DNA of 64,000 bases. Origin: Lachnospiraceae bacterium. Lineage in GTDB: Bacteria > Bacillota > Clostridia > Lachnospirales > Lachnospiraceae. Shown here piece by piece: positions 1,704 through 22,845 of the stretch. Both the position numbers and the translations under genes were made by a program. Below the pieces are notes generated by a model, which worked only from the letters and a program-made list of their open reading frames with translations, ran no database searches and was not told the DNA's origin. The number at the start of each line of letters is the position of its first letter. Position 1 is the first letter of the stretch. Location of the stretch: assembly GCA_017396555.1 (NCBI GenBank), contig JAFQLS010000017.1, forward strand, positions 1 through 64,000, in the 5' to 3' direction.

Positions 1704-1732
1704 TTGAAAATATTGTCGAAAAATGATAGAAT
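1704..1732 (+). promoter_or_regulatory. Promoter of the surface-system operon
   Basis: TTGAAA (1704-1709), 17-nt spacer, TAGAAT (1727-1732), about 40 nt before the GTG start of the HD-GYP gene. It is the only good promoter I see before the eleven co-oriented genes ending at 22791. Confidence 0.6.
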
Positions 1733-1771
1733 ATAATGGATTTATTATGTGAAGAAAGGAAAGTGTGCTAA

Positions 1772-2425
1772 GTGATTACAACAGACAGAGAAAAGGTTAG
1801 CAGTTCATGTATAGGATGCTTTCCTACGATTAACAGTTTGTATAGTATGATTCCCAGAGAAACCAGATTGCATATGGAGAGAGTTGGCAGATATTCGGAG
1901 GTAATATTTAAATATCTGTATAGGAAGAATCCTGAACTTGTAGAGAGTGAGCTGGGTGTGGAATTTGCTAAATATAGTGAAGAAGCATTTAGATATCATG
2001 ACATAGGAAGATATTTCATTCCTATAGCGGTTCTGAACAAGGTTGAGAAGCTTACGGATGAAGAGGTAATGATGATTAGAGACCATACTATAAATGCACT
2101 TTCGGCCGTTGAACTTCTGTATAAAAAACCATTTCCAAGAGAGGTTTTGGAGAAATTTTTGGATATTGCTGTGTATCATCATGAGAGATGGGATGGTGAT
2201 GGATATCCTGAAAGAAGAAAGGGTACGGACATTCCAATAGGAGCAAGGATATGTGCAATAGCAGATAACTTTGACGGGATTATCAGTTGGAAGCCATATA
2301 AAAAGAGACAAACTACGGAGATAGAGGCTATAGATATAATAACTAATCAGGCAGGTAAGCAATTTGATCCATATCTGATAGAGGTATTCGAAGAATGTAG
2401 TTATAACTTATTGATAAAAGGATAG
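1772..2425 (+). CDS. HD-GYP domain protein (predicted c-di-GMP phosphodiesterase)
   Basis: A stand-alone 217-residue HD-GYP domain, a family that hydrolyses cyclic di-GMP or related dinucleotides. The signature is nearly complete: H34 (RLHMERVGRYS), H76-D77 (YHDIGR), K90 and the LTDEE segment, H105, H136-H137 (AVYHHERWDGDGYP, with GYP at 144-146), IP.GARI, D165 in IADNFDG and a final FDP. There is no sensor domain or signal peptide, so it should be cytoplasmic. The start is GTG with SD GAAAGGAAAG; no better ATG is available. It is the first gene of the operon, 9 nt before the next, which ties surface-protein production to c-di-GMP. The usual Gly after the third His is Asn, so activity is likely but not certain. 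Confidence 0.85.
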   Translation: MITTDREKVSSSCIGCFPTINSLYSMIPRETRLHMERVGRYSEVIFKYLYRKNPELVESELGVEFAKYSEEAFRYHDIGRYFIPIAVLNKVEKLTDEEVMMIRDHTINALSAVELLYKKPFPREVLEKFLDIAVYHHERWDGDGYPERRKGTDIPIGARICAIADNFDGIISWKPYKKRQTTEIEAIDIITNQAGKQFDPYLIEVFEECSYNLLIKG

Positions 2426-2434
2426 TGATAAAGC

Positions 2435-3382
2435 GTGAGTAATAAAGAAACTGATACAAACAATAAAATTATTACTGATAATAATAGTAATATGGATAAC
2501 GAAAATAAAAAAACAGATACTAATGTTCCTAAAAAATCATTTATTAGTCGTTTTGATTTACTTAATAGATTTAAGCATTGGTATATGGGTGGAATAAGTA
2601 TAACAAGAAGCTTGTTCAGAGTAAGAGCAGCATGGCAGGGTGTTATTATTATTTCCTCAATATTAGCGATACTGTTTATTTTGTCAGCATTTTATACAGG
2701 AGCAGGTGAGTTCGTCATCAGCCTTAGTAGTGAAATGTCAGAGGATGGATTCTTTTTATCCAATACAGAGGATTTTTCGGAGCGTCAGGTTTGTATAAGA
2801 GGTACGGCAGTTGTAGCAGACAATGTCAGTATATTTGATATTAGCGAAGACGTTGGTTATGTAGATGGAATGCACAATGGACAAAATTATGTTGCACATA
2901 CATTTTATTTAACGAATAAAACGGGAAAGACAACAGATTACAGATACACACTTAATATAAGACAGTCGGCTAATAATGCAGATAAGGCGTTGTGGGTAAT
3001 GCTATATATGAATGGCAAGCAGACAATATATGCGCTTGAGGGTGCGAATGGTGAAGCTGAAAGCCAGTATTCTATATATAATTTTCCTTTTGAGTCAGAT
3101 GCATTAAGTGATAAGCAATACATAACCGTGGATGGAATTGAGTCGGGTATTAGTCCGGAGGAAATCAGCAATGCATTATCAATTAATACGGCTAATAAGC
3201 TTGTAACTACACCGTTTGTGTCTGAAAAGGTTATTTGTACAGACATAAGAAAAGAAATAGAAAATGATGAAATTGATAAATTTACAGTTGTTATGTGGTA
3301 TGAAGGAGAGGATCCTGAATGTACAGATGAAATAATTGGCGGTTGGGTTGAAACGTATATGACATTTGACTATGTTGAATAA
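2435..3382 (+). CDS. Membrane-anchored exported protein, WxEGxDxxC family
   Basis: 315 residues: a 65-residue Asn/Asp/Lys-rich cytoplasmic head, one transmembrane helix (about 67-88), then an extracellular beta-rich domain. I recognise no named family. The C-terminus (about 287-296, MWYEGEDPEC) shares a pattern, W-x-E-G-x-D-x-[DE]-C, with the ends of the next two products, so the three form a related set. The long polar head and lack of an A-W-F type cleavage region distinguish it: it may stay anchored as an assembly base rather than be released. It starts at GTG 2435 and belongs to the operon (gaps of 9 and 20 nt). Confidence 0.75.
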   Translation: MSNKETDTNNKIITDNNSNMDNENKKTDTNVPKKSFISRFDLLNRFKHWYMGGISITRSLFRVRAAWQGVIIISSILAILFILSAFYTGAGEFVISLSSEMSEDGFFLSNTEDFSERQVCIRGTAVVADNVSIFDISEDVGYVDGMHNGQNYVAHTFYLTNKTGKTTDYRYTLNIRQSANNADKALWVMLYMNGKQTIYALEGANGEAESQYSIYNFPFESDALSDKQYITVDGIESGISPEEISNALSINTANKLVTTPFVSEKVICTDIRKEIENDEIDKFTVVMWYEGEDPECTDEIIGGWVETYMTFDYVE

Positions 3383-3402
3383 ATTAAGAAGGACAGTGAC
3401 TT

Positions 3403-4266
3403 ATGAATAATAAAAAGAAAAAAACGAAAACGGCATTTTGGTTGTCAATATTTTTTATAGTTATTGGTACTACAGGAGTATATGCATGGTTTTCTGTAAG
3501 CAATAGAGCAAGAGTAGAGAATCTGGCGCTTATTGCTGACCATCAGGGAAATTTAAGAATTGCTGATGATACGGGAAATGGACCGGGAGAATATAAAGAC
3601 ACTCTTAATTTGACAGAAACGAATGAAAATGGTCTTAATACTATACTTAGTCCTGTAACTACAATGGATGGAGTTAAGTTTTTCTCTCCGGAATACAATC
3701 CTTCAACACAAACTGTTGAGAGTGTATCAGAAATTACTGACCACGAAGAGCTCACAAAATTTTATGTTTATGAGAAAACATTTTATTTAAGAGCAGGAAC
3801 AGACGATAGAGAGACTATAGCTAATATAAATCGAAAATATGATGTTGCTTTATATGGTGTGAACTCTACAAATAAAGTAAACGGATGTTATATGTATCAG
3901 TCAGAAGGTGAAAATGGTGATACGGCAGCAAATTCGATAAGAGTGAGCTTTACCCTGGAGGATGGGACTACATACATATATGAGCCTAACTGTGATGTTA
4001 ATAATACTGATGATACAAGGGCAAAGGATGCAGTAAATATTGTATATGGACGATATGACACATACAGACAGAGAGAGAATGGTGTGTTTGAAATTAGTCC
4101 GAAGGCTAATGAATCAGAAAAGTTATTTACTATAGATGAAAATGTAGATATTAAGGTTACTATGAGAATATGGATTGAAGGTACGGATGTTGATTGTACT
4201 AATTCAATAGCAGCAGATAATATTCTTGGACAAATTCAATTTGTATCAACTGAAATAAAAAATTAG
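3403..4266 (+). CDS. TasA/camelysin-like exported subunit, paralog 1
   Basis: 287 residues with a basic start (MNNKKKKTKT), a hydrophobic helix (about 11-28) and YAWFSVSN immediately after, the arrangement seen in SipW-processed proteins such as TasA and camelysin. The body is beta-rich and acidic. It is clearly paralogous to the next product: both contain PGEY.DTL.L, YVYEKTFYLRAG and AANSIRV, and both end in the W-x-E-G-x-D-x-D-C motif followed by AAD.I.GQIQF. Two such tandem subunits suggest a heteropolymer or a duplicated major component. The processing peptidase is probably the one at 8085. Assignment to the TasA superfamily rests on N-terminal architecture and context, not on a demonstrated fold. 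Confidence 0.75.
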   Translation: MNNKKKKTKTAFWLSIFFIVIGTTGVYAWFSVSNRARVENLALIADHQGNLRIADDTGNGPGEYKDTLNLTETNENGLNTILSPVTTMDGVKFFSPEYNPSTQTVESVSEITDHEELTKFYVYEKTFYLRAGTDDRETIANINRKYDVALYGVNSTNKVNGCYMYQSEGENGDTAANSIRVSFTLEDGTTYIYEPNCDVNNTDDTRAKDAVNIVYGRYDTYRQRENGVFEISPKANESEKLFTIDENVDIKVTMRIWIEGTDVDCTNSIAADNILGQIQFVSTEIKN

Positions 4267-4282
4267 TAAAAGAGGATAGCTT

Positions 4283-5206
4283 ATGAATGAGAAAAAAAGG
4301 AAAAGATTAAATCTGACAAAACGGACAATGATGACAATAGTGATGCTTGGTATTAGCATACTTACAATTTCGATTTCAGCATTTGCATGGTTCCTTATAA
4401 CTAATACACCGAAGGTTGAAAATATCGAATTGACGGCAGATACAATAGGAACTCTTCAGATCGCAGAGGATATGGGAGATAAGCCGGGTGAGTACTCCGA
4501 TACATTGGATTTAAAGGGTAAAAACAAAAAGAATACATATTTAAGCCCTGTTACTACCAAGGACGGACTTACATTCTTTACTCCGGTGTATACAGAAAAT
4601 AAGGTTACGAATTTGAAGAAAGAAACTCAAAAGAAAGTGCTTAATACTAAGTATGTATATGAGAAAACATTTTATCTAAGAGCTGGCGATGATTCTACAA
4701 AGGTGGATAAAGATAAGGCTAAGACATATGATATATATCTTGTGGGTTCGTCGGCTGATTCCAATAATGGTTGTTTTGTTAAACAAAAAGGAACTGATGG
4801 AAAAGGAAATGAAATAACAGCAGCTAATTCTATTAGAGTGGCATTAACATTTGAAGGTGGTAACAGTGGTGAAAAGGTAACTGTTATTTATGAGCCTAAT
4901 GCTGATAAGGATAATAAAGGTGTTAAAGGCAAAAACATGGCTTATTTCGATTATAAGGGCAATGACAGTAATTCAGAGGCATATGGTGCATATGGTACAA
5001 TACAGCAGAATTACGATAAGAGCTTTAAGCCTAACAGTAATATAAGTTCTCGTTCGGTTGTGATTGATACAATTACTGAGGGAAAAGATGTGAAGGTTAC
5101 AATGAAGATATGGTTAGAGGGTATGGATAAGGACTGTGTTAACCAGGTTGCAGCAGATGAGATAATTGGACAGATACAATTTGGCTCAGAAGAAAGATTT
5201 GAATAG
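4283..5206 (+). CDS. TasA/camelysin-like exported subunit, paralog 2
   Basis: 307 residues, tandem paralog of the preceding product. It has a basic start, a hydrophobic helix (about 15-34), then AFAWFLITN with AWF at 35-37. Shared blocks are PGEYSDTLDL, YVYEKTFYLRAG, AANSIRV and, at about 274-300, MKIWLEGMDKDCVNQVAAD followed by IIGQIQF. It differs in being richer in Lys/Asp/Gly in the middle (GKGNE, DKDNKGVKGK), as expected for surface loops that diverge. Gaps of 16 and 10 nt place it in the operon. It is probably secreted and released or assembled after SipW-type cleavage. Confidence 0.75.
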   Translation: MNEKKRKRLNLTKRTMMTIVMLGISILTISISAFAWFLITNTPKVENIELTADTIGTLQIAEDMGDKPGEYSDTLDLKGKNKKNTYLSPVTTKDGLTFFTPVYTENKVTNLKKETQKKVLNTKYVYEKTFYLRAGDDSTKVDKDKAKTYDIYLVGSSADSNNGCFVKQKGTDGKGNEITAANSIRVALTFEGGNSGEKVTVIYEPNADKDNKGVKGKNMAYFDYKGNDSNSEAYGAYGTIQQNYDKSFKPNSNISSRSVVIDTITEGKDVKVTMKIWLEGMDKDCVNQVAADEIIGQIQFGSEERFE

Positions 5207-5216
5207 AGGTATTGAT

Positions 5217-6893
5217 ATGGACGCATATTTTAATTATTTTTACAACTTTGTAAGACACATATTTGATAGTTTATATGGATTGGTAGTTGCTTTTGTGGAT
5301 TGTATTGCAACTATTCTTGACATACAGTTTTATCAGAAACTTGCAAATTCTTATTATAAGGATTTATCACCTTTAGGCTGGTTTGCATATATAATTACAC
5401 ATATTTTGATTTATATTTTAATTGCACTTATTATTTATCTGATTTATAAGGGAATAAAGGTGCTGTTTAGATTTAAGGTTCCTGTGATTAAGTATGAGCA
5501 GATGAAGGATGAAGTAGTAACATTAAAGCGTGAGATAATGAAGGCTAATTATGAAAAGGATAAGATATTAGCTATGAAAATATCCGAAATGGGACTTAAG
5601 GTTAATGAGGAGTTGCTTGAAAATAATCCTGAGCTTAAGGGAATGTACAGTGGCGTAGAAAACCCTGACAATATGACAGATGAAGAAATTGATAATATCG
5701 TTATTAAGAATGTAGTAATAAATACAGCTACTACAGAACATGAGGAACGTATAATTGACCCTGAAAATCCGGAGGATGTTAAAACGGTTCTTACAGGTGA
5801 ATACAGATTCCCAAGATTGTCTACAGTTGACCTTGTATATAAGGATGAGAATTATGTGGCACCGGAGTATGATAACAAGATGACGCTTGAAGAAATCTGT
5901 ATTAATTTCCGAAATTATGCAGCATCAAGATTGCATTTGTACTATGAATTAGATGTTATTAAGCAGGCATTTGCTACATTTGGAGCAGCAAAGATGCTTA
6001 TTTTACAGGGTATATCCGGTACAGGTAAGACTTCGTTACCATATGCGCTTGGTCAGTACCTTAATAATCCAAGTCTTATTTGTTCTGTTCAGCCTTCGTG
6101 GAGAGATAGAACGGAGTTGTTTGGATATTACAATGATTTTACTAAGAAGTATACAGAAACAGATTTCTTAAAGACATTATATGAGGCTCAGTATTATGAT
6201 GATATGAAGCTTGTAATCCTAGATGAAATGAATATTGCCAGAGTTGAGTATTATTTCGCAGAAATGTTATCTATTCTTGAATTACCAAGAGAGGATGAAA
6301 GATTTGTTTCAGTGGTATCATCACAGGCTGATAATGATCCGGATAAAATGTTTGAAGGTAAGATATGGATTCCTTCAAATGTGTGGTATGTAGGAACAAT
6401 TAATAATGATGATTCTACGTTTGCAGTATCAGATAAGGTATATGATAGAGCTATTCCAATTGACTTGGATGCAAGAGCAGAGGTGTTCGAGGCACCGGAT
6501 ACAGAGCCTGTTAGACTTAGTTATACTAATATGGCAAGGATGTACGATGAAGCTAAGGAGAAATATCCTGTATCAGAAGAAAATCTCTTAGAACTCGATA
6601 AGTTAGACCAGTATCTGATTGAGCATTTCAGATTAACATTTGGTAACCGTATTTTAAGACAATTAAAGGATTTTGTTCCATGTTATATAGCATGTGGTGG
6701 AACAGAAATAGATGGTATAGACTTTATGTTTGCAAAGAAGGTATTAAGAAAATTCGAGTCATTAGGTCTTGGATTCATCAGAGATGAGCTTGATGGTTTG
6801 ATTATTTATCTTAATAATGCATTTGGAGAAGAAAACTTCCAGATAAGTAAGGAATATTTACAGCGTCTTAAGAGAATGAGTGGCGCAATGTAG
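5217..6893 (+). CDS. Membrane-anchored McrB-like AAA+ ATPase
   Basis: 558 residues from the ATG at 5217; an in-frame TTG at 5166 lies inside the previous gene, and the ATG follows an AGAGG. Two predicted membrane helices (about 15-35 and 55-83) are followed by a charged coiled-coil-like stretch (90-125) and an AAA+ module: Walker A GISGTGKTS (265-273), Walker B LVILDEMN (332-339) continuing into ARVEYYFAEML, sensor region GTINNDDST (393-401) and Arg411. The Walker B context and the N-N-D-x-S segment resemble the McrB/MoxR side of AAA+. McrB normally drives a nuclease (McrC), but here it is embedded among secreted proteins and anchored to the membrane, so a role in export or assembly is more plausible than DNA restriction. 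That role is inference. Confidence 0.85.
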   Translation: MDAYFNYFYNFVRHIFDSLYGLVVAFVDCIATILDIQFYQKLANSYYKDLSPLGWFAYIITHILIYILIALIIYLIYKGIKVLFRFKVPVIKYEQMKDEVVTLKREIMKANYEKDKILAMKISEMGLKVNEELLENNPELKGMYSGVENPDNMTDEEIDNIVIKNVVINTATTEHEERIIDPENPEDVKTVLTGEYRFPRLSTVDLVYKDENYVAPEYDNKMTLEEICINFRNYAASRLHLYYELDVIKQAFATFGAAKMLILQGISGTGKTSLPYALGQYLNNPSLICSVQPSWRDRTELFGYYNDFTKKYTETDFLKTLYEAQYYDDMKLVILDEMNIARVEYYFAEMLSILELPREDERFVSVVSSQADNDPDKMFEGKIWIPSNVWYVGTINNDDSTFAVSDKVYDRAIPIDLDARAEVFEAPDTEPVRLSYTNMARMYDEAKEKYPVSEENLLELDKLDQYLIEHFRLTFGNRILRQLKDFVPCYIACGGTEIDGIDFMFAKKVLRKFESLGLGFIRDELDGLIIYLNNAFGEENFQISKEYLQRLKRMSGAM

Positions 6894-6924
6894 CACATAG
6901 TAATGGCGGAAAGGAGAAACTTCG

Positions 6925-8082
6925 ATGGATATAGATGAATCATTACGTCCTTTTGATGATGAAAAGGATGTAGTACAAAATGTATATGATAAAATGTCAT
7001 CTTCAAATCTTAATGCCACGAAGGATGATGCATTTTATAAATATTTTTATAATTTGTTGGATACAAGTACTAATTTCTGCACATTTAAGCATGTGCGTCT
7101 TATTAAGAGCATTGATGAGGATTGGATAAGCGCAATAGAGGAAGCACTTCCTTCTCTGCATCATGTAATTATGAATCCAAGAAAATTCATAGAAGAGGAT
7201 AGAGAAGTTGTTAATATTGCAATGGCAAGAAATATTACAACAGAGTCATTAAAACATTTAACACAGCATAGTGATCTTATTGATAAGTACGATATGGAAG
7301 ACGGTACTGTTATTCCAAACAGAATCCTGAATGTATTTAAGGAAGAAAGCTTGAATATATACGAAAACAGATTTGTATGTACATTGATTGCGGAGCTTCA
7401 GCATTTTGTAAATAAAAGATATAACGTAATATTTGAAAATACGAAGGATGAGCTTGGTGCATTTTTTGAAATGGAATCCAGAGTAGATAATTATACAGAG
7501 ACTGTTGATTATAAGCTTAGCGTAAAAGTAAAGGATAAGCAGTCGGATTCTGAAAATGAGAAGGATAATAATGACATTTTCTCAAGATTAATTACTATTC
7601 ATCGTCAGGTAAATGGTCTTGCATCGACTGAATTTATATCTGAAATGAGAGGTTATGCTCCGGTTAAGCATCCTATAGTTAAGACGAATGCTATCAAGAA
7701 AAATATGTATTATAAGGCATGTCAGAAGCTATGGAATTTTATTTACAGCTATAATAAGGTTGGATATACGGTTAATCTTGTAAAAAAAGAACCTATAATA
7801 ACAGGAGCTTTCGAGAAGGATATATATGATTCGTTTATCTGGAATTATGCAATGATTCATAATCAGATAGAGGATGTAAAAGCTCTTGATATTAATAAAC
7901 CTGAGAGAAAAAAGGAAGTTAATACCAGATATATTCGTCAGATGTTGGAATATATAGTTAGGGAAAGTGGTATTCCGGATGCAACCTTAAAGAAAATAAT
8001 TATTAATGAATTAGATACAATACAAAGTAAACGCAAGCGTGAGGAAGCAGAGCTTGCAAGAGCATTGAAGAAGAAAAAATAA
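6925..8082 (+). CDS. DUF2357-like partner of the McrB-like ATPase
   Basis: 385 residues, soluble, helix-rich, with a very basic C-terminus (KKKK). The block ESLNIYENRFVCTLI (141-155) matches the ENRF hallmark of DUF2357 proteins, which usually sit beside McrB-like ATPases and often carry a PD-(D/E)XK nuclease. I see no D...D-A-K-Y or similar catalytic set here, so it may be a nuclease-free adaptor. The later block KACQKLWNFIYSY fits the LYE-W-type helix of that family. A good SD (AAAGGAG) precedes the ATG; the gene is 31 nt after the ATPase gene and 2 nt before the peptidase gene, so the pair is locked into the operon. Family assignment is from motif memory. Confidence 0.65.
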   Translation: MDIDESLRPFDDEKDVVQNVYDKMSSSNLNATKDDAFYKYFYNLLDTSTNFCTFKHVRLIKSIDEDWISAIEEALPSLHHVIMNPRKFIEEDREVVNIAMARNITTESLKHLTQHSDLIDKYDMEDGTVIPNRILNVFKEESLNIYENRFVCTLIAELQHFVNKRYNVIFENTKDELGAFFEMESRVDNYTETVDYKLSVKVKDKQSDSENEKDNNDIFSRLITIHRQVNGLASTEFISEMRGYAPVKHPIVKTNAIKKNMYYKACQKLWNFIYSYNKVGYTVNLVKKEPIITGAFEKDIYDSFIWNYAMIHNQIEDVKALDINKPERKKEVNTRYIRQMLEYIVRESGIPDATLKKIIINELDTIQSKRKREEAELARALKKKK

Positions 8083-8084
8083 AT

Positions 8085-8645
8085 ATGAAAGTTACGAAAA
8101 TATTTAAAGTGGTGGAAGATATTTTATTTATAATCCTTTTGGGAATTCTTTGCTATACAATTTATTCAGTACATGTATATAAGACTGTAGGTTTTTTTGA
8201 GTATCATTTTTTCAGGATACTTAGTAATAGTATGGAACCGACATTTGAGGTTAATACCTGTATTATTGTAAAAGAAGTAGATGAGGACGATTTAAAAGTT
8301 GGAGATATTATAACATTTAGAGCTGACACTACGGAGATTTATGGCGAATATAATACTCACAGAATCTATGATATAGAATTAGATGAGTCTACAGGTAGAA
8401 AACGATATGTTACAAAAGGGGATTATTTTGAGTATGAGGATAAGGTAAGGGTTGAATATGAAGATATTATAGGGAAATATAATAGTAAAATGCCATTTAG
8501 CGATCAAATAAGCTGGCTTGTAGAGAAGCTGTCTAATAATAAGGTATATTTTTGTGTTATTATTTTTCCGTTAATATTATGTTTTTTATCATATGTATAT
8601 CAGTTACTTGATATTTTATTTGTTGAAAAGGGAAGTGAATCATAA
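8085..8645 (+). CDS. ER/SipW-type signal peptidase I
   Basis: 186 residues with N-terminal (about 10-30) and C-terminal (about 153-177) membrane helices and the signal peptidase core between. Box B is SNSMEPT with catalytic Ser49. The general base position is NTHRI with His92, not Lys, which defines the archaeal/ER/SipW subtype. Box E is TKGDYFEYED with Asp113. In Bacillus, SipW processes the TasA fibre protein. Here the gene lies between two groups of proteins with hydrophobic N-termini ending in A-W-F or similar, which are its probable substrates. It abuts both neighbours (2 nt before, 0 nt after), implying coupled translation. Confidence 0.93.
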   Translation: MKVTKIFKVVEDILFIILLGILCYTIYSVHVYKTVGFFEYHFFRILSNSMEPTFEVNTCIIVKEVDEDDLKVGDIITFRADTTEIYGEYNTHRIYDIELDESTGRKRYVTKGDYFEYEDKVRVEYEDIIGKYNSKMPFSDQISWLVEKLSNNKVYFCVIIFPLILCFLSYVYQLLDILFVEKGSES

Positions 8646-9428
8646 ATGAAAAAATCAAAACGTGAGGCAATTAGAATAGTAGTTATGACTATGGTAGTTA
8701 TAGCTGTAATAGGTAGTGCTACGGTTGCTTGGTTTCTGAAGGGTTCGCCGGCTTCCTTAAGAAATATGGATATTGCGATGGATGATAAGGGAGACCTTTT
8801 GGTTAAGGTAAAGGTAGAGGATGGTAGCTATAAGAATCTTAGCCAAATAGGTACGGGAGAAAATGTAAAATACACAATAGACCTTAATATTGTTGATCAG
8901 GATAATATAGAAAATAATACATTTGCTCCAGGCGCATATGGAAAGGTAGAATTTAAAATTAAAACAATGACATCTTTGGTTGAAGGATATTCTATTAGAA
9001 TTACACCTTCCATAGAAGTCAATGAAAAATATGAAGAGGATTCATTGAGTGAAGAAGAATTGTTTGATTTAGTTAAAATGCATATTAAGTTCTATGCTGT
9101 AAATGATTCGGGTAAATATTCGGAGGTTATTCCATATTATGATGAAAATGTTGTAAATATAGACGAATGTCAGCTCACAGGGGCTTTGTCGGAGGGTATA
9201 GAGAAGGATGTTACATTATATTGGTATTGGCCATATGAGTATATAAATGTTCCTGATAAGGATAATGAGGAAAGTCCGGTGTATGATGAGTATGAAAAGT
9301 ACAGAGAACTTGGTACTATTACTGAACAAATCGAAGCATATGACTGGGATGATACATATATAGGAAATTACGTAGAAAAATTAAATTTTCATTTTGATGT
9401 AGAGGGAAACAGATATGAAAAAGAATAA
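8646..9428 (+). CDS. TasA/camelysin-like exported protein
   Basis: 260 residues. The start MKKSKREAIR is followed by a helix (about 11-27) and ATVAWFLKGSP, the SipW-type processing signature. The mature part is acidic and beta-rich, with FAPGAYGKVEF (a pattern recalling the PG...V.F strand of camelysin-like domains) and TLYWYWPYEY near residue 195. It abuts the peptidase gene and overlaps the next gene by 14 nt. It is a probable fibre or matrix subunit. It lacks the C-terminal W-x-E-G-x-D-x-x-C motif of the upstream group, so the operon encodes at least two subunit types. Confidence 0.75.
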   Translation: MKKSKREAIRIVVMTMVVIAVIGSATVAWFLKGSPASLRNMDIAMDDKGDLLVKVKVEDGSYKNLSQIGTGENVKYTIDLNIVDQDNIENNTFAPGAYGKVEFKIKTMTSLVEGYSIRITPSIEVNEKYEEDSLSEEELFDLVKMHIKFYAVNDSGKYSEVIPYYDENVVNIDECQLTGALSEGIEKDVTLYWYWPYEYINVPDKDNEESPVYDEYEKYRELGTITEQIEAYDWDDTYIGNYVEKLNFHFDVEGNRYEKE

Positions 9429-10185
9429 GAAATTAATAGTAATATCATTGATAATTACGGTTTTCCTTGTGTTTGGTACAAGTTTTAGCTGGTATTTATT
9501 TACAAAGGATAATCATGCAGACAGGTTGGATGCAGAAATTATGGCACCATATTTTTTGTATTTGTTAAATCCAGATGATGAATATTCGCTTCAGTTTTCA
9601 GTAGGTAATATTCATCCGGGTGAAACAAAGGAAATAGTTATTTGTGTCAGTAATAAAAGACCAACAGATGTGTCTGATAATTCTATAGATATTGCAAGAG
9701 AATCTAAGTTTAATTATGATCTTGAGTTTATTTATACGGAGAATCTTCCCGTAAATTATAATATATATGAGCTAAATAAGTATGATATGTCAGATGACGG
9801 AAATTATAGTGAAGCTAGCATAGTTGTTGAAGGTGTCGAGGATTACTACTGGAATAAAAATGATGCGCGTAAGAATAGCGATGGAACACCTAAACCTTTA
9901 ACAATTACTAAAAATGTAACTGACGATAGACTTTCTCAGGTGTTTGGGCAGGAAGATATTTCAGGTGTAGTTAATAAAGGTAATTATTTGCTATATCAGG
10001 AGGATGGTCAGGCAAAACCTGAGCCATTAGGACTTGAATACAAGAATGAAGAATATGAATTTGATTATTATTTGATAGAAGTGACATGGAAGGATGGAAT
10101 AACCTTCAATGATTACACAAAGGAAACAGACCTTTTATATGTAGTGGTTAATGCTAAACAACCATTACCAAAGGAACAGGATTAA
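9415..10185 (+). CDS. TasA-like exported protein
   Basis: 256 residues. The N-terminus MKKNKKLIVI, a helix to about residue 22 and FSWYLFTKD resemble the cleavage regions of its neighbours, with WY in place of WF. The mature domain opens with a strand, then has IHPGETKEIVICVSN (about residues 64-78), the typical P-G-E/Q strand of camelysin-like beta-sandwiches, and a C-terminal segment of alternating hydrophobics (DLLYVVVNA). It overlaps the upstream gene, suggesting translational coupling and matched amounts. I recognise no enzymatic motif, so it is probably structural. Confidence 0.7.
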   Translation: MKKNKKLIVISLIITVFLVFGTSFSWYLFTKDNHADRLDAEIMAPYFLYLLNPDDEYSLQFSVGNIHPGETKEIVICVSNKRPTDVSDNSIDIARESKFNYDLEFIYTENLPVNYNIYELNKYDMSDDGNYSEASIVVEGVEDYYWNKNDARKNSDGTPKPLTITKNVTDDRLSQVFGQEDISGVVNKGNYLLYQEDGQAKPEPLGLEYKNEEYEFDYYLIEVTWKDGITFNDYTKETDLLYVVVNAKQPLPKEQD

Positions 10186-10207
10186 TTGTAAAACGTGGTG
10201 AGCAGAT

Positions 10208-11284
10208 TTGGTAAAAACAGTGAAAATTAAGGACAAGTTAATAGCTATAGGTGTAACATTGTTAGTACTAATTATAATGTTATGCGGGTATTCTATTGTG
10301 TTTGCTAAGTATTATGCAGCAAGGAATAATAAGGGTATTGCTATTGCTTCGAATTTTTATTTTAACAGTGATAAACTAAATAAAATTGATAGACTTATTG
10401 ATATTTCTAGTGAAGATTGGAAGACAGATATTAACTGGATTAATGAGAATCTGTCAGATAAGATAATGGTATACACTAATAATGAAAGATGGTCGAATGG
10501 ATATTATGATTTTGATATTATGATTCAGAATTATGATAGTCATATTCTATATAATCAGGAAGATATGAAGGTCGGTTACAAGGTTGAATTTATGTTGCTT
10601 GACCAACCTGTAGGGGCTGCTTATCAAATAGTTTCTAATGGAAGAACATATAATCTTAATTATGAGGATATTGTCAAATTAGGTGGTGAATTGGAAGGCG
10701 GCAGCCTTAATAGTGATACCTATAAAATAAGAATGACTCTTACGGACACTATTGATAATTATAAACAGGCAAGGGTTTTAGTTATTGCTTATCCTGATTC
10801 TCCGGATTATTTAAAACAGGAAGATAATCAGCAATATCTAATGGCTGGTGTATTTGCAGGAACAGCAAGTATGATGGAACTTAATATTGCGTCGCAGAAT
10901 TTTGAAGTGGTTGAAGAATACAGTGACTTTAATATTAAATATGTAGATTATATAAATGATTTGACTGGGTATATATATAACATCAAGACAGAAGGAGATG
11001 TTATTAAAAATGAGAATACAGCTATTAAGCAGGAAATAACTGTAAGATGGAAAACAGATTATTTGAGTATAAGTGAATTTGACGAGTATTATGATGAAAG
11101 CAGGATTACTACAGGAGTAGAGGATGGAATCAATTATACCTATATGACAATTGATGTGCTTCCATATACAAGTATTAATCTTACTTTTTATAAAACAGAT
11201 AAGTTTATTCAGGAAATGAAGACAGGTGGACAACTTTACAGTAATTCTGAAAATTTTAAGAATCTGGTATATGCATACAAATAG
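10208..11284 (+). CDS. Exported or membrane-anchored TasA-like protein
   Basis: 358 residues from a TTG start (SD GGTGAG, 10197-10202). After a basic start (MVKTVKIKDK) comes a long hydrophobic helix (about 11-34) ending FAKYYAARNNKGIAIASNFYF. The A-S-x-F-Y-F segment right after the helix is a common start of TasA-like mature domains. The body contains Y.VEF.LLDQP and YNLNYEDIVKLGG blocks and ends in a Tyr/Asn-rich tail. It is the last small exported protein before the giant secreted gene (29-nt gap), so it could be the adaptor or cap holding the giant protein. That is inference from position. Confidence 0.65.
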   Translation: MVKTVKIKDKLIAIGVTLLVLIIMLCGYSIVFAKYYAARNNKGIAIASNFYFNSDKLNKIDRLIDISSEDWKTDINWINENLSDKIMVYTNNERWSNGYYDFDIMIQNYDSHILYNQEDMKVGYKVEFMLLDQPVGAAYQIVSNGRTYNLNYEDIVKLGGELEGGSLNSDTYKIRMTLTDTIDNYKQARVLVIAYPDSPDYLKQEDNQQYLMAGVFAGTASMMELNIASQNFEVVEEYSDFNIKYVDYINDLTGYIYNIKTEGDVIKNENTAIKQEITVRWKTDYLSISEFDEYYDESRITTGVEDGINYTYMTIDVLPYTSINLTFYKTDKFIQEMKTGGQLYSNSENFKNLVYAYK

Positions 11285-11313
11285 GAAATATTTATTTACG
11301 GAGGCTTAGCAAT

Positions 11314-17300: not shown

Positions 17301-20300
17301 TGAAGCACTTGAAATTATTGCACTTGCGCTTAATAGTGATGCGTTATCTATATATTATGACAGATTTGCTACAAGACAGAACAGCCATGACATATATGGA
17401 TATGAAGTAACTGCAAAGTGTAGAAAAGGAACATATGCTGATCTTGGTAATAAGAGTAGTGCTGACAGGGAGTCAGTAGTCTTATATGATGATGGCAAAA
17501 ATCCGGATGAAAGTAATGTATTTTTGTATCCGTATTTGTTACACAAATATGTTAGTTTTAATAGTGCAGCTTCAGAGAGCGATAATTATGCTAATTATAT
17601 AGATTATACATTCGAGATTAAGCAGACAACAGCGGTTGTTGATAATGTAAATGTTAGCTATAACATATATATTTCGAGATTTAACAAGATACATGATGAT
17701 GTAAGGGAATATACAACAACATATGAGCTTGATAATGGAATTACGGAAGTACTTGATTTATCAGGATATGGTGTAAGCTTTAGAGGATTTGGGGCTTTGT
17801 ATACAGTAGGAAGGTCCGATTTTAGAGCGAATTTTGATGGTAACAGTAAGAATATTAAATTATCAATGAACAGAGAATTTGACAGTTCAAAGGATTTCCC
17901 GGTGGGAATGTTTAATTCTCTTACTTATGATGTACGTGTAGGTGATGCTGTAATTGGAAATAACAATGCCACAATTCCTATGCCGGATGAAGAGGCACTT
18001 GTAATTAGAGAGATAAATATTGTTGATAGTACATTTGATAATATATCAGGTACAGGAACTTATACCGGAGCTATAGCGGGAAGACTTACAGGAAAGTGGG
18101 ATTTTGAAGATATTTATATTAAATCCGAAAACACTGACACCAGCATAGAGGGTAATTTATATGTAGGTGGTTTAATAGGTTCTATAGATAATATAAAATG
18201 GCAAAACACTTATAATGATGATTTACACGATGCTTCAAATGTAATTAATTTCAGGAGATGCGGAACATTTGGAAAAGTAGCGGATACTGTAAAAATAAGT
18301 GGTGAAAATACAATTGTTGGTATTGGTGGCATAGTTGGAGCTATAGGAAGAAAGGATGCTACGAATAAAGAAAATAATGTATTCTATTCCGGAATTATTT
18401 CGATGGAAGATTGTAGTATAAATAACACAGAGATATCAACGGGTAATACAGGAAATGCCGGTGGATTTGCCGGTATGCTTGGATTTAGAAAAACGGATTC
18501 GACATACTCTGCGGTTGGTGTTGTTAATGTAAGTAATACAGAAGGATTTGCAGCAAATAATATTGAAAACGTAATAATTAGAAATAAGGTTGATAATGAT
18601 AGTCAATCTGAATCGTCCATAGGAGGTTTGTTTGGAAAGGTTCTTTTTGTTAATAAACCTGCACCAAATAATGACCCAATGTTTGGGTATATTGGTATAA
18701 ATGGATGTAATGTATCAAATCTTAACATAATATGGGCAGAGAATAATACCAGTCTTACATATAATGAAGATGGTAACAATGCCATAGGTGGACTTATTGG
18801 ATTTAATAGGACACAGAACACGGATATATACAATATTAAAGTTAATAATTCTACAATAGGCACAAGTGAAAATACAGCTTGTTCAGCCGGTGGATTAATT
18901 GGTTTATATAGAGATACTACAGGTGGTGGATTAAACTATGCAATTAACTATAATGTTGATAATGTAGAGATTAGTAATACAAATATTGTATCAAAGAGTG
19001 GCAGAGTTGGTGGTTTGGTAGGACATTTACGTTCTGATGTAAATTCTATAAATAATTGTAAGATTGATAACTGTACCATAACTTCGGAGTTAGAGTCTGT
19101 AGGTGGATTATTAGGGTACCATTATCCTGCCTATGCCGGAAGTACAACTATAAATGATATAGAAGTTTTGGCAAGTACCATACATACAACTGATGCACAT
19201 ACTAATGGTTCTAATGCGATTGCAGCAGGTGGTATCATTGGTCAGGCGGCTAATTATGGTAATGTTATTACAGTTGGCCGGGTTTATGTAGGAAATGGTT
19301 GCTACATACGAGGTGCCAAAGGTGGAGGGGGTATATTTGGTATTGTTAATAATGATGTGAATATTACATATAATGAATGGATTGGAGTTGGAGCCAAGTA
19401 TTCTTCAGATGCGTGGGTTGAGGATAGCGTATATAACAATATTGTTGGAAGAATTGCAGGAGGAATTGCAGGAAGCGAGGATTCAACAACTGAGAGAAAT
19501 ATATCAGCAAAGCTTTGCGTTGCTAAAAATAGAATATATTCATACGATAGAATTGGCAATGCTAATGGAAGATGCGGAAGTGGTGGTCTTGCAGGATATA
19601 GAAATGGAGCCTCAGGTCAGGTAATTCTTGATGATGTGACTATTATGCATAATGTAATAATAACATCAGGAAGAGGAGTTACAGCAGCAGAAGCATATGG
19701 AAGCGGTAATAATAATTATATGCCTGCAGCCGGTGGAATGTATGGTAGAATTGAGGCAAATAGCTCAAGCACTACAGAATGCGCAAATATTACTTTGTTA
19801 GATAATAGTATTGGCTTCTACGATGTTAGCAGTATGGATGAGGATGAAAAATATAAAGGCTTTAAAAATCTTGATATTAATTCAGAGGAAGTTAAGCTCT
19901 TTTATTACGATGAAAATAATACCTTGCAAACTGCTAAATGGAGTGAATCGTTAATTAATGAAAAAAATGTTGGGCGTTATTCTATAGGATTAGGAACATT
20001 TATCGGATATTATTTAGCAAATAATACAAGCAAAAACAGACAGTTTAATATTTTGAGACCTAATGTAATATTTAGTGAAGATATAGGTTCCATTCCGGCG
20101 ATAGATTGTGGAAATATCAAATATACTACTGATTCGACACAATATGGAGCACAATATCCATATAGTTATAGAAATACTGTACATATTCTATATATGAAAG
20201 ATAAAGAAAATACTATAATAGACAGTGCTATTGTTACTAAAACAGGAGAAGATAATAACTTGTTTGAAAATCTTGATAATATTATTTCGGATTATAGAGA

Positions 20301-22791
20301 TGTTAGAGATATGACAGTAGATGAAAGTGATAGTAATGCTGTAAAAAATGCTACATATAGCTTTATTAATTCAGATAAGCTCAAGGCATTTATGAGAACC
20401 GGAAACGGTGAAGTATACGATATCATAGATGGAGAATTAAATTATTACGATTCTACATATAATGCTGCTGATTATAATGGCGTTCCGGTTATAGTATTAG
20501 ATGGTCATGAGGTACAGCATCTTGGAGATTGGCCGGTATTTATGCTGACAGGAGGAAGTGGTGTAACTAAGAGCACAATGGCTAGAATGAAGAATTGTGG
20601 CTTTTTAAATATAACCTGTGATAATGCTGTAATTACACCGGCTGGAAAAATTATTTTAAACAATGGTTTGTATGGAACAGGAGATAATAAGAATAACACA
20701 AGTATTAGTTCATCAAATGGTTATGCATTATCTCTGCAAAATCGTCCGTATGATGAGAGAGTAGAGAGGGATGATGGTGTATATTACACGATTACATTGC
20801 TTGAGTACAATTATTCCGTTAAAACTACAACAGGCACAGTAAAAGAAACAGTATATGTTCCTGTGTATGTAAAAGAAAAGGTAACGGTTAGCTCTTCGGT
20901 ACGAATTCTAGGTGGAGAAGATTATTCTTATACATCTGCTATGAATGACGGAAAGCACGGAGAAATAGTTATTGCACATGGAAGTGTATATACAATATTT
21001 GCTGAATTTGTATATGACAGTATAAGATTAAAGGATTCTTTTGCCAATATCATACTTAAGAAGACATTAATATTTAAGAATTCACAGGAATCAATACCGG
21101 TTGGAACTAAATTGACTTTGGTGGATAATCAGACCGGAAAGGATTATTACTATATTGTTGAAGATGATAATATAAATGAGATTCCGCTTACAGCATTTAA
21201 AAATAATGGTGTAGGATATGAAGAAAAGGAAATTGGCGGACAAGGAATAACATATACGGCAAATAATTATCAGATGTTTGATGGAACTGTAATTAAAGGT
21301 CAGGTAGGTATAGATCGTTTCTATATATATGTTCAGCCTTCAGAAGGAGATCATAATATTACATATGATTTTCAGATTAAGGCTGAGCCGGTGGATAAGA
21401 ATAATGCAGCAATGGATGGATATTTCACTAAGAAGTTTGATGCAAATATTAGTATGGAATTTATCCCGGGACCTGAGATTTCATTTGCCGGAGTGTCTAA
21501 GGACGAGCTTACAGGAATATACACAGGTACTGAAGGTATAACGTTTACAGAAGGAACAATTAGCAATGAAAAGAGTATAACAATAGATGCTACAGTCGAT
21601 ATTTCGCTTGCAGATAGTACTTCACCATATTGGACTAAAAGAGAAAGTACAATTGATAGTACTAATAATGGTAAATATCTGGATGTAGCTGTAACTCTTG
21701 TGGATAAGGATGGTAAAGAGGTAGCCTTCCCAGAGGGTACTAATATAATCTTTAATGATGGTGCACCACAGACTGTAAATGGCTCGGTTATATATCTGTA
21801 TAAGGATAGTGGCAAGAAATTTGCTTATGATACGCTTGAGAGAGATATTAACGGAAATAAGCCTTGGTATTATTATGATGTTGACGGCGATGACACTTAC
21901 AAGTGGATTACCAGTAATGATGGCGTGAATTATTTCTACTATGAAGACCAGACTGAGCCTGTAAGCGTAGATAATGTTACAATTGATAAGATAAATATGT
22001 TGTCTAACCATATAAAGCTTACATTTGATTTTTCATTAGCTGATGTGGATGAATATGCAGGAAATGATTATGATGTAGTGCTTAAATTGTATCGTTCTAC
22101 AGACCCTGATTATCCTATAGAGGAATTTATTGAGTCAAAATCGAATAGACAGACAGAGTATAAGGAGGAAGTAGACGGAGAGGCAAATAAGCAAATGGGT
22201 GCAGCAGTATCTGTAGCCGATGATATGTCGCTTGGAATCAACCTGTATAAAAATTTTGTTACAGAAGAATTTATTTCGTTTACAAATAAGTTTGATTTTA
22301 CAAATGTTATTAATAAGAGAAATGATATCAGAGCACAGGAGGATATAGAAGAGTGTGCAGGTGATACATATATGGTTACCTACAGAATTCAGAAGAAGAA
22401 TTCGAGAGGTAATTATGTAACTATTGATATTGAGGATAGTCCATTTAAGCTCAGTAAGATTTCTAAGGATGATAATGGAGATGAAGTTGTTACCGATATG
22501 GATATAACTGAAATGAATGGTGATCAGGTATATGTAGAATTCAAGAATTTTACAGAAGAAGATATTAAGACTGGTACTGACGGGGTTATGTATGTTACTG
22601 CATGGGATATGAAGCTTACGGCAAATGTCGAAAAGCTAAAAGAAAATGTAGATATTCTATCAAATTATAAGATTTCAATATCATATCTTCCATATAATGA
22701 GTCAGAAGAAGGAATACCTACAGATGATGCGGCAGCAATATTGTTAGATTATTTTATATTTACAGTTGCTAATCTTAAGACTGATATGTAG
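11314..22791 (+). CDS. Giant secreted beta-helix (GLUG-like repeat) surface protein
   Basis: 3825 residues with an SD (CGGAGG) 9 nt before the ATG. Signal peptide about 1-25; Thr/Glu/Pro-rich linker with four 8-residue repeats (48-79, type ETTTEPQT); then a very long region (about 200-2950) with around thirty GGLIG/AGGIAG/SGGVVG-type turns spaced as in GLUG-motif parallel beta-helix adhesins; finally a beta-sandwich-like region (about 3150-3825) rich in Asp, Lys and Thr. There is no LPxTG sorting signal and no C-terminal membrane helix, so display must depend on other products, plausibly the fibre proteins just upstream. The last residues (DYFIFTVANLKTDM) form a strand-like hydrophobic end. 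Likely role: adhesion to a surface, carbohydrate or partner cell. No catalytic domain was recognised. Confidence 0.85.
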   Translation: MYQRLKKILALILSVALFVNATDFSAFIIYGDERDKSEETTIELQTSEITTEPQAETTTEPETETTTEPQTETVTEPQTETKVEAEMKPVDTDFVDIKPNGAKTTVSATNALNYTSYDNINIGVYTHQDWTSLVAITHKSSLEGVDIILSNDNSKTSDKQTWDLTLNDLKYSDGTNIYYGLGSKEYPFAGNLTSQFTLTLKPKVSLFNYLSSKANIGSNGYAITINYVKGSNNIMGGLAGHLVLESDYEFDYKRLAITGYVGHQNGVSEVAGGLFGYVESKEGVTGVKFLIDDDMTGISGITNVYGRIAGGIAGVVDKNVVVEMSGAPILPNIVHSSATCAGGIIGKLSEGSKLITTATQSKPIVLKNGENGSTAIKITGAGYSGGVVGWVENSTIELQYVEKHDSVNGTLHVGGLIGYAESTSTDKPVKVTVSDCVIAAFHVSQTSNNISQSNCSGGIIGKYKTTDEDTESSLEISKVTTKTASRENSNEVQSFLRVEVYPYTKKDLYYYNGGIVGGICGNNVNIHDIDFKRDGFRVNQIYCFNTKYVWDTQSAGTVAGGIAGKNIEISNILLANGKFAGTDAYGTAGLSGKTVGGLVGRIGYFDGNNITGTKIKVSDIDIDSLYIWEADADQTKYLMNNGGLFGDIGKGSVVAICGDIDLSGVTTIAPDVEGYRDLCGKVEGRGFVAGSVNESLVYFEKDAVIKRPITVDDGVVYFSEDKDEDFSTNNPAYRLYTINDVGNYGSIYQNIDDENGNAVIQYDNEYGNEVTGTVGTETVDDKEFYVLDSLADALRLAIAGHTFDESGDKKPRFARDCFGDKTINELLNANYLIKTDIDLGDAGINGFVRNDSLLYPFSGIMKGASKGENGKYKITVNNITRQYYGGLFPQLDDGVSFENIKIDGYLGYQITPTTATGAAGVLAANSKGGITLKGVDVSTVICGHCVANVWDNSTMYCYGGYVGNVDIGTGEIVVDDCNISPNIHSMNCHYFVGGLFGKIILKNTSLSSSIKIINSTISTKIIADKNIGNGNTTSGAHIRSGGLIGFVGYQYKNVSETNNNNNITPGAVAAMSHATMVIENIDIDSAVMDMTLSPQNNVKMSGGLLGYAWCNVDLKLNDVNVINESKLYSRGITGGLISFLSGSAKVTNINLESFEMKNTWGTNVTYSGLLFGNGQYAYITLDDATYVINPDAVTTENYSYFDEIVGLNLMVNRCNEFGAALDGSYSNAGVLNIIKSDFDSFKGDTEYSSYVNKVVEGTNKYSRYYYNLFTGDKNEWIIQMSGNSGNIDSPKKFMTFHISQYAHSYLKRYFNEYFSNSVSTSLTIANISIDLDMNGYSLYPTVLNGRTVNGNSHTITLYGEEISNIEKTLKDNEKSLVYRNNEFISNATTQHYLMHASLFYNVTGSTISDIKIKGTIAKNERYTGALIGGAVYGTTTIKNIILDNVTISNYNNESHGLMIARIGLVNDANNNQKLESANIVIDGIDTIYDTSDKTVAGALIGSVGNTNAKDARVRFENMRVSGVKSDKIFTYASFIYDYQYTSDLENNNCYGLYTFEYDDAVSGNVTYGKEIAKGVEYNDCLVSSIPEGDPNPLEEAINRAQTEANFYLPYVYKTKDIYVNPQNGNILEGCGTYEDPYVIKNSRQFLSLYCYLTGKTSYYNMFESKGEGTPGWTINRIGGDGDPYECSEKADSSVAHSSAEFSIVDGKLNEEFPTIDELRTAYYIIENDINLEDIIDLNDSILVQEYNGLGTLQYPFAGVISGKEIDTDKYSTITLPRQGESNSVQTNYGLIQYMKGAVVKDLNIITPVKDEGDTSEIFINVNAYAGGVAAILLGGDNIIDNVSTRVRFRAYNNVNYDVSTVIMGGYVGKIKNGSLILRNLNDKNVTDGCEYIHLKTGGNVTTVCNESDYVGMLVGKVEDGFILYEHNSNEKAFEDTTKKVLTKNDLVVSTANNNLKLANGFDIINGYALDKGIEAFGKINVTKDANGNLNVNMNSAEALEIIALALNSDALSIYYDRFATRQNSHDIYGYEVTAKCRKGTYADLGNKSSADRESVVLYDDGKNPDESNVFLYPYLLHKYVSFNSAASESDNYANYIDYTFEIKQTTAVVDNVNVSYNIYISRFNKIHDDVREYTTTYELDNGITEVLDLSGYGVSFRGFGALYTVGRSDFRANFDGNSKNIKLSMNREFDSSKDFPVGMFNSLTYDVRVGDAVIGNNNATIPMPDEEALVIREINIVDSTFDNISGTGTYTGAIAGRLTGKWDFEDIYIKSENTDTSIEGNLYVGGLIGSIDNIKWQNTYNDDLHDASNVINFRRCGTFGKVADTVKISGENTIVGIGGIVGAIGRKDATNKENNVFYSGIISMEDCSINNTEISTGNTGNAGGFAGMLGFRKTDSTYSAVGVVNVSNTEGFAANNIENVIIRNKVDNDSQSESSIGGLFGKVLFVNKPAPNNDPMFGYIGINGCNVSNLNIIWAENNTSLTYNEDGNNAIGGLIGFNRTQNTDIYNIKVNNSTIGTSENTACSAGGLIGLYRDTTGGGLNYAINYNVDNVEISNTNIVSKSGRVGGLVGHLRSDVNSINNCKIDNCTITSELESVGGLLGYHYPAYAGSTTINDIEVLASTIHTTDAHTNGSNAIAAGGIIGQAANYGNVITVGRVYVGNGCYIRGAKGGGGIFGIVNNDVNITYNEWIGVGAKYSSDAWVEDSVYNNIVGRIAGGIAGSEDSTTERNISAKLCVAKNRIYSYDRIGNANGRCGSGGLAGYRNGASGQVILDDVTIMHNVIITSGRGVTAAEAYGSGNNNYMPAAGGMYGRIEANSSSTTECANITLLDNSIGFYDVSSMDEDEKYKGFKNLDINSEEVKLFYYDENNTLQTAKWSESLINEKNVGRYSIGLGTFIGYYLANNTSKNRQFNILRPNVIFSEDIGSIPAIDCGNIKYTTDSTQYGAQYPYSYRNTVHILYMKDKENTIIDSAIVTKTGEDNNLFENLDNIISDYRDVRDMTVDESDSNAVKNATYSFINSDKLKAFMRTGNGEVYDIIDGELNYYDSTYNAADYNGVPVIVLDGHEVQHLGDWPVFMLTGGSGVTKSTMARMKNCGFLNITCDNAVITPAGKIILNNGLYGTGDNKNNTSISSSNGYALSLQNRPYDERVERDDGVYYTITLLEYNYSVKTTTGTVKETVYVPVYVKEKVTVSSSVRILGGEDYSYTSAMNDGKHGEIVIAHGSVYTIFAEFVYDSIRLKDSFANIILKKTLIFKNSQESIPVGTKLTLVDNQTGKDYYYIVEDDNINEIPLTAFKNNGVGYEEKEIGGQGITYTANNYQMFDGTVIKGQVGIDRFYIYVQPSEGDHNITYDFQIKAEPVDKNNAAMDGYFTKKFDANISMEFIPGPEISFAGVSKDELTGIYTGTEGITFTEGTISNEKSITIDATVDISLADSTSPYWTKRESTIDSTNNGKYLDVAVTLVDKDGKEVAFPEGTNIIFNDGAPQTVNGSVIYLYKDSGKKFAYDTLERDINGNKPWYYYDVDGDDTYKWITSNDGVNYFYYEDQTEPVSVDNVTIDKINMLSNHIKLTFDFSLADVDEYAGNDYDVVLKLYRSTDPDYPIEEFIESKSNRQTEYKEEVDGEANKQMGAAVSVADDMSLGINLYKNFVTEEFISFTNKFDFTNVINKRNDIRAQEDIEECAGDTYMVTYRIQKKNSRGNYVTIDIEDSPFKLSKISKDDNGDEVVTDMDITEMNGDQVYVEFKNFTEEDIKTGTDGVMYVTAWDMKLTANVEKLKENVDILSNYKISISYLPYNESEEGIPTDDAAAILLDYFIFTVANLKTDM
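11455..11550 (+). repeat. 24-bp tandem repeats encoding E-T-T-T-E-P-x-T
   Basis: Four in-frame 24-bp units encode residues 48-79 of the giant protein (EITTEPQA, ETTTEPET, ETTTEPQT, ETVTEPQT). They form a flexible, possibly glycosylated linker behind the signal peptide. Length variation by slippage would stay in frame. Confidence 0.85.
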
Positions 22792-22808
22792 AAAAGCAAA
22801 GTATAAAT

Positions 22809-22845
22809 AACAGGTAGTGATTTAAGGTCACTACCTGTTATTTTG
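22809..22845 (+). terminator. Strong terminator of the surface-system operon
   Basis: A perfect 12-bp stem (AACAGGTAGTGA with TCACTACCTGTT) has a 7-nt loop and is followed by ATTTTG, 17 nt after the giant gene. It marks the end of the operon that begins at the 1704 promoter. Confidence 0.85.

Follow-up and report, generated by a model that had tools for sequence, protein, structure and literature searches.

The question raised by this locus is why a gut-type Lachnospiraceae bacterium should encode a restriction-type AAA+ protein and its partner among exported proteins and a signal peptidase, and what the combination might do. We think it rather probable that this is a CoCoPALM-type locus dedicated to exporting and assembling adhesins or surface fibres, with an AAA+ ring of the McrB type, anchored in the membrane, at its centre; the fibre, the anchor, the motor and control by c-di-GMP are predictions, whereas the gene set and its order, the co-occurrence, the type of peptidase, the class of signal and the lack of a recognisable nuclease can be read from the sequences. 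Eleven plus-strand genes fill positions 1772–22791 of the window (the whole stretch of DNA that was analysed, 64,000 nucleotides), separated by gaps of 0–31 nt and with one 14-nt overlap (X4/X5), and we predict that they form an operon (Table 1). The tightly spaced, one-strand set of eleven in the preliminary description is thereby borne out. That description had also proposed a single promoter at 1704 and a strong terminator at 22809. A promoter-like site does exist, matching 10 of 12 consensus positions with TG before the −10 element, but such sites are not rare (18 in window positions 1000–4000 against 14.6 expected from shuffles in a consensus scan). For the terminator there is a terminator-like hairpin at 22805–22843 with a folding energy of −25.2 kcal/mol (z = −6.9; none of 200 shuffled sequences folded as stably), though its T tail is short (ATTTTG); it is absent from the output of a terminator consensus scan. 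Within the window there is no Rfam riboswitch at the gathering score, and one tRNA only. The start of the AAA gene was set to ATG 5217 and not TTG 5166, because homologues align from there. The window's genome (2.34 Mb in 57 contigs) is 85% complete, so the absence of a gene from it is not strict.

Table 1. Features of the predicted operon, with window coordinates
Feature	Position	Strand	Basis
Promoter-like site TTGAAA-17-TAGAAT, extended −10	1704–1732	+	Consensus match only
HD-GYP protein, 217 aa, putative c-di-GMP phosphodiesterase	1772–2425	+	PF13487 4.8e-28; HDIG, HHE and GYP motifs intact
X1, proposed membrane anchor/base subunit	2435–3382	+	Profile–profile 97% to X2/X3; topology inferred
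X2, exported subunit, SipW-class signal (YAWF)	3403–4266	+	Profile comparison
X3, X2 paralogue (42–43% identical), SipW-class signal (FAWF)	4283–5206	+	Profile comparison
AAA+ protein of McrB type	5217–6893	+	N-terminal membrane segment and charged helix, GISGTGKT, LDEMN, NNDDST, YDR
DUF2357 (McrC N-terminal type) partner, no nuclease domain	6925–8082	+	PF09823 5.4e-12
SipW/ER-type signal peptidase (Ser-His-Asp)	8085–8645	+	TIGR02228 9.1e-25, over cut-off
X4, exported, SipW-class signal (VAWF)	8646–9428	+	Profile comparison
X5, exported, SipW-class signal (FSWY)	9415–10185	+	Profile comparison
X6, exported or membrane-anchored, signal variant AKYYA	10208–11284	+	Weaker SipW-class match
Giant exported protein, 3825 aa	11314–22791	+	Sec-type signal (by eye), T/E/P-rich linker, GLUG-type repeats, no LPxTG
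Terminator-like hairpin, 18 bp	22805–22846	+	Folding energy versus shuffles

Beyond the terminator-like hairpin, 23014–24057 (+) encodes a 347-aa protein that matches the YhgA-like transposase family below threshold and has a series of RTEGR-type repeats close to its C-terminus. Further on, we take the product of 30606–31481 (+) to be a bactofilin from its appearance, and the genes directly after it are presumably the housekeeping genes pyrH, frr and uppS.

For the AAA protein, the matches to Pfam AAA_5 (0.0046) and to the NCBIfam McrB model (6e-6) fall below the respective cut-offs, and a 12-row AAA profile matches solved McrB structures (PDB 6hz4 and others) at 1.5e-5. Walker A, Walker B, YDR and N-N-D-D-S-T are present in all 78 AAA proteins of the loci compared below, a count that for NNDD is partly circular, the genome scan having used it as one of two patterns; N-N-D-D-S-T is also invariant in the 12 of 12 rows found by protein search. 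A simple hydropathy test of the first 120 residues places an N-terminal membrane segment in 78/78 AAA proteins, and in the 12-row alignment this segment is followed by a conserved charged helix. Of the 25 families listed, out of 32 with matches to 30 AAA proteins, none was FtsB or DivIC, and FtsL_2 matched weakly in two of the proteins. As for the partner, DUF2357 was matched in 23 of 30 homologues and a nuclease domain in none of the 30 scanned; coiled-coil-type matches are scattered through the same set. The preliminary description had called the two proteins a motor pair: their placement in the McrB-type AAA+ and DUF2357 families stands, whereas a motor role would be a prediction from protein family.

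It had also found this to be no system that it could name. The combination of AAA, DUF2357 and signal peptidase does have a name, CoCoPALM, from a 2024 paper whose few sentences on the class, set beside the CoCoNuT systems, report no tested function (PMC11090510). As outlined there, CoCoPALMs have an NxD-type McrB GTPase/ATPase domain, a membrane and helical N-terminus, a McrC-type partner and a linked signal peptidase, with an FtsB-like N-terminal domain (transmembrane plus coiled-coil helices) fused to the AAA (PMC11090510). The AAA sensor here carries the shortened NxD motif, usually then D or E, of the definition given in that source (PMC11090510), and the DUF2357 partner is of the McrC type; judged by its predicted domains, the core of the locus fits CoCoPALM.

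Such relatives bring a defence function into consideration, and a restriction system was rejected on the lack of a nuclease match together with the membrane N-terminus: the AAA/DUF2357 pair does not look like one in its predicted domains. Searches of 72,556 plasmid records and 50,697 phage records gave no site covering 80% of the query, and cargo of known plasmids or phages was likewise rejected; partial matches (17 plasmid and 2 phage records) fall mainly in the AAA domain. It is improbable, in our estimate, that the locus is a CoCoNuT relative whose exported proteins act as outer sensors or barriers against phages. Membership of the McrB/McrC superfamily, the treatment of CoCoPALMs beside CoCoNuT systems (PMC11090510) and a patchy distribution (12 of 200 family genomes) would suit that function, but the nuclease-free DUF2357 homologues and the membrane segment in every AAA protein argue against it, and the plasmid and phage result tells only against a mobile defence island.

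The surface assignment begins with the signal peptidase, which the preliminary description had taken for an ER/SipW type and which proves to be one: over the cut-off for TIGR02228, it also matches the SipW equivalog NF046067 (2.6e-18, below that model's own cut-off), and among 97 aligned homologues the catalytic Ser and His are kept in 97 and the later Asp in 94, as scored by alignment columns in place of a motif pattern that was too strict. It is the sole TIGR02228 match over cut-off in the window's genome. As peptidases of SipW type pass the cut-off in 62 of the 200 family genomes, the presence of one does not by itself mark the system. Many of the more distant loci (within L072–L135) carry two SipW-type peptidase genes, one on each side of AAA/DUF2357, which suggests separate peptidases for two substrate sets.

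None of X1–X6 matches a curated family over cut-off. At least five A-W-F-like export regions had been proposed; AWF itself is found in X2, X3 and X4, with the variants SWY in X5, AKYYA in X6 and AFYT in X1. We compared subunit profiles with 15 TasA/camelysin-type open reading frames from the phylum, picked by a PF12389 match plus a signal-motif pattern. With signals included, the profile–profile probability of a match was 94% for X2/X3, 93% for X4, 95% for X5 and 83% for X6; as controls, the membrane segments of the AAA, signal peptidase and giant proteins gave at most 57% and column-shuffled profiles less than 1%. With the signal removed, no subunit profile exceeded 19%. X1 reached 8% against the same signal class. 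Curated models respond weakly to the 45 X2/X3-type proteins: TIGR04088, the SipW-signal model, matches only three (best 0.033), the TapA model two (best 1.1e-4) and PF12389 one (0.0099), and the window's genome, at 85% completeness, has no PF12389 match at 0.01. By profile comparison, then, the export signals of X2–X5 are of the SipW class, though divergent, and the mature parts of X2–X6 have no detectable TasA/camelysin homology at the profile–profile level. The earlier label of TasA-like subunits thus holds for the class of signal (93–95% for X2–X5) and fails for the mature parts.

Nor do the subunits form one family. A first iterative grouping had placed X1–X5 together, and was rejected because it is only the signal they have in common that brings in X4 and X5; mature X4–X6 resemble neither X2/X3 nor TasA in profile–profile comparison. 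Sequence searches of solved structures gave no useful match for X2/X3 or X5. All four matches to the X2/X3 profile in the window's genome (E up to 0.1) fall within the operon. In a crude count, A-W-F-type motifs occur in 184 of 355 membrane-segment proteins inside AAA gene runs versus 20 of 107 outside, an outside set that still includes some system genes.

X1 stands apart. Past the membrane segment its ectodomain is homologous to X2/X3 (97%, profile–profile), and some 65 residues precede its single transmembrane segment. This tail is conserved among close homologues: a form of SRxDxxNRFxHWxxG occurs in 10 of the 24 aligned rows and NKIDPAN-FRHWYLG in four more, with distant rows differing. 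We infer a topology in which the tail is cytoplasmic.

The AAA gene and X1 keep company with great regularity. Across 200 genomes of the family, AAA matches at E up to 1e-5 occur in 24 and matches below 1e-128, a line drawn after the list was seen, in 12, the window's genome included; the X1 profile, run over the same 200, finds X1 in 12 genomes, and they are the same 12. One of these (G009) has X1 with a stop codon on a different contig from its AAA gene, which lies near a contig end. In a class sample of 291 genomes that partly overlaps the first, 15 have AAA at E up to 1e-60; X1 was found in 11 genomes, every one of them among the 15. Four AAA genomes thus have no X1. In G688 the AAA is a fragment at the edge of a contig; in G828, which is 78% complete, AAA lies no more than 71 bases from where its contig ends; and in G777 and G793 the AAA matches omit the N-terminal columns. 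Because AAA-linked loci supplied the sequences for the X1 profile, it could miss distant X1-like genes. Among 398 genomes across the phylum, with few rows listed from the class, the window's is the only one with AAA at 1e-60.

Gene order tells the same story. Thirteen other family relatives were mapped by open reading frames: in nine, genes for exported proteins precede AAA, DUF2357 and the signal peptidase, in that order, and more such genes follow (G009 has an extra exported gene between DUF2357 and the peptidase), two (G146 and G089) are cut by a contig end soon past AAA, and two are of a sister type. Behind the run, seven of the nine carry a protein of 2846–4135 aa. A scan of GTDB species genomes returned at least 531 confirmed AAA relatives among at least 596 candidate stretches, not all of which need share these neighbours. 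The best 80 of these relatives, retained as named loci, bear titles from Lachnospiraceae, Oscillospiraceae, Ruminococcus, Christensenellaceae and other Clostridia, or in a few cases no more than 'Bacillota' or 'bacterium'. Metagenome-assembled genomes make up most of them, many from animal guts; those titled otherwise include Lachnospiraceae bacterium 10-1 (L067), Anaerosporobacter faecicola (L072) and strain 1XD21-87 (L063). Seventy-seven of the 80 plus the window make up the 78 loci compared (L091, L115 and L129 were dropped for want of an AAA reading frame above 350 aa). In 72 of the 78, DUF2357 directly follows AAA; 74 have a signal peptidase nearby, and at least one protein of the SipW-signal class or X1/X2/X3 type is present in 72 (two or more in 70), a grouping by signal or homology and not by one fold. 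Several of the exceptions lie at contig ends, and the order recurs across several families of Clostridia.

The co-occurrence check that the preliminary description had proposed across Lachnospiraceae genomes thus finds the same gene set recurring. Its doubts, that the genes might be scattered in relatives or the ATPase pair evolve apart from the exported proteins, were answered in the negative: over 23 loci the distance correlations range from 0.93 to 0.97 (AAA–DUF2357 0.965, AAA–X1 0.935, DUF2357–X1 0.931; 0 of 2000 permutations as high), values that show joint inheritance only, the species tree not being factored in. Chance neighbourhood was rejected on the X1/AAA co-occurrence. A SipW-type secretion operon and an independent McrBC-derived pair sharing a transcript by accident is highly improbable: most of the 62 family genomes with SipW-type peptidases do lack this AAA, which 12 have, but X1 and AAA co-occur in the family sample without exception, X1 always falls inside the AAA set of the class sample and the order recurs in several Clostridia families, so that this alternative looks largely refuted by co-occurrence. 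The locus is a recurrent dedicated system, and the surface-protein system claimed from the letters is to that extent confirmed.

The two sister-type relatives differ. In G073 (L048/L049), a DUF2357 gene sits between two AAA genes whose products have hydrophobic N-termini; neighbouring products have N-terminal hydrophobic segments and match AgI/II-C2 (over cut-off) or MBG (below cut-off), and on the 12-kb contig neither X1 nor a signal peptidase was recognised. In G188 (L047) the AAA genes, again with hydrophobic N-termini, stand in tandem, and no X1 and no DUF2357 were recognised there. The idea that these AAA relatives without X1 lack the membrane segment was dropped, the segment being present. 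These arrangements suggest that the AAA core may serve more than one kind of surface protein.

For the giant, the preliminary description had proposed a β-helix protein with no sorting signal. No LPxTG end was found with the pattern used, here or among the other listed proteins of at least 640 aa, many of which are cut by the locus end; the β-helix is presumed from the GLUG repeats. Overlapping ones included, the protein contains 26 GG[LIVA][FIVALC]G motifs, where 1000 shuffles averaged 0.3 and gave 3 at most, and the Pfam Glug model, a weak one of 28 positions, attains its cut-off a single time, when the score is summed with neighbours in frame. A β-helical fold is a fair guess from these repeats. 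Many distant loci have other kinds of large exported proteins, several with SipW-class signals, and a GLUG giant was not seen within their fetched flanks. At L057, the first reading frame, four genes before AAA, encodes at least 2407 aa with GLUG motifs and ends in a hydrophobic stretch and basic tail; this giant may be anchored in the membrane at its C-terminus.

The enzyme at the operon head, a putative phosphodiesterase, has intact HD and GYP active-site motifs (HDIG, HHE, DGDGYP). Profiles for HD-GYP and EAL were kept separate, an earlier joint 'HD' grouping having drifted into EAL proteins. Upstream of AAA we compared the 49 loci whose flank there reaches 8 kb or more, together with the window, although its flank is shorter. 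In 35 of these 50 a match to one or both profiles lies on the same strand as AAA (HD-GYP 15, EAL 13, both 7); the other 15 have none. Downstream matches occur in four of 78 loci, the window's on the other strand only, the lengths searched not being matched to those upstream. An HD-GYP-type gene heads the operon in five of 11 non-sister family relatives and lies downstream in one more. Of ten such proteins scanned against Pfam, three have HD_5 plus EAL, one HD_5 alone and four EAL alone; the remaining two, both downstream, combine EAL with a weak GGDEF match. Double-domain HD_5 plus EAL proteins upstream of AAA (L112, L087, L085) fail the HDxG pattern and are possibly c-di-GMP receptors rather than enzymes. 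The best argument for a functional link is that unrelated c-di-GMP domains are exchanged at one position. The preliminary description had placed the system under c-di-GMP: intact motifs and the upstream recurrence sustain the association, and control itself would follow from gene position. The surrounding region is rich in c-di-GMP genes, since a GGDEF-EAL protein (24101–25657, minus strand; 518 aa, EAL 2.6e-63) lies just past the operon and a GGDEF protein with TPR repeats at 27271–30537 (+).

Taken as an export and assembly locus, the parts could work as follows. Sec would insert X2–X5, and probably X6, and the operon's SipW-type peptidase would cleave their A-W-F-type signals, a step that the sequences support. 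X1 would remain in the membrane as the base on which X2/X3 subunits build a fibre. Tethered to the membrane through its N-terminus, the AAA+ protein would form a ring with DUF2357 as activator, much as McrB does with McrC. In what is the weakest step, NTP hydrolysis by the ring might act on X1 or on emerging subunits and so gate, nucleate or release the fibre. The giant GLUG protein would leave by the general Sec route as an adhesive or scaffold part, and the HD-GYP or EAL protein at the operon head may adjust the system through local c-di-GMP.

In its specific form this scheme has a restriction-type AAA+ ring moved to the membrane, where it would be the energy-driven assembler or gate of SipW-processed fibres, coupled through the cytoplasmic tail of X1 and tuned by the operon's c-di-GMP enzyme; this we offer tentatively, as possible and short of probable. 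A motor is not obviously needed, because BsaA, a SipW-dependent fibre protein, polymerises in E. coli without an AAA/DUF2357-type partner (PMC7395162). That result also favours a different arrangement, in our view rather unlikely, in which the fibre assembles itself as TasA and BsaA do and the pair acts as a module for quality control or regulation at the membrane, one that extracts or senses misprocessed subunits, or reports the state of the fibre to the c-di-GMP enzyme. The HD-GYP/EAL gene upstream in 35 of 50 loci would fit such a module, and the tail of X1 could be its sensor. Against it, the pair is present in every X1 genome of both samples, a closer association than expected for an optional regulator, though in co-occurrence an obligatory regulator and a motor would look alike.

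Should the energy-driven assembler hold true, monoderm bacteria would have a fibre system powered by NTP and distinct from both type IV pili and sortase pili, and a defence-type AAA+ module would have been reused at the cell surface.

The closest known systems each share part of this design. With McrBC type IV restriction the locus has in common a McrB-related AAA+ domain and DUF2357, as in McrC; unlike McrBC, its AAA N-terminus is a membrane segment in place of a DNA-binding domain and its partner has no nuclease domain. SipW-type peptidases belong to the tapA-sipW-tasA operon of Bacillus subtilis and to the TasA/CalY system of B. cereus. Their substrate signals are of the same class as those here, whereas the McrB-type AAA+ pair is an addition and the mature subunits have no detectable homology to theirs. 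The sipW-bsaABCRSD operon of Clostridium perfringens combines a SipW-type peptidase with several exported proteins and yields a filamentous extracellular polymer with no sortase requirement (PMC7395162). It resembles the present locus in placing the peptidase in one operon with exported proteins; it differs in its two-component control, and the operon as described there has no AAA+/DUF2357 pair, the main text not containing the word ATPase, and no giant is mentioned in the description (PMC7395162). No paper on the full gene set was found by title within open-licence papers. CoCoPALM shares the NxD-type AAA+ protein with a membrane and helical N-terminus, the McrC-type partner and the linked signal peptidase. 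The SipW-signal subunits, the X1 anchor, the GLUG giant, the missing nuclease and the HD-GYP/EAL gene go beyond the description in the sentences devoted to that class (PMC11090510), although its authors may know of them. For a class named in 2024, the locus and its relatives thus provide a testable parts list: a proposed anchor found only in AAA genomes, likely peptidase substrates, a nuclease-free partner and an HD-GYP/EAL gene.
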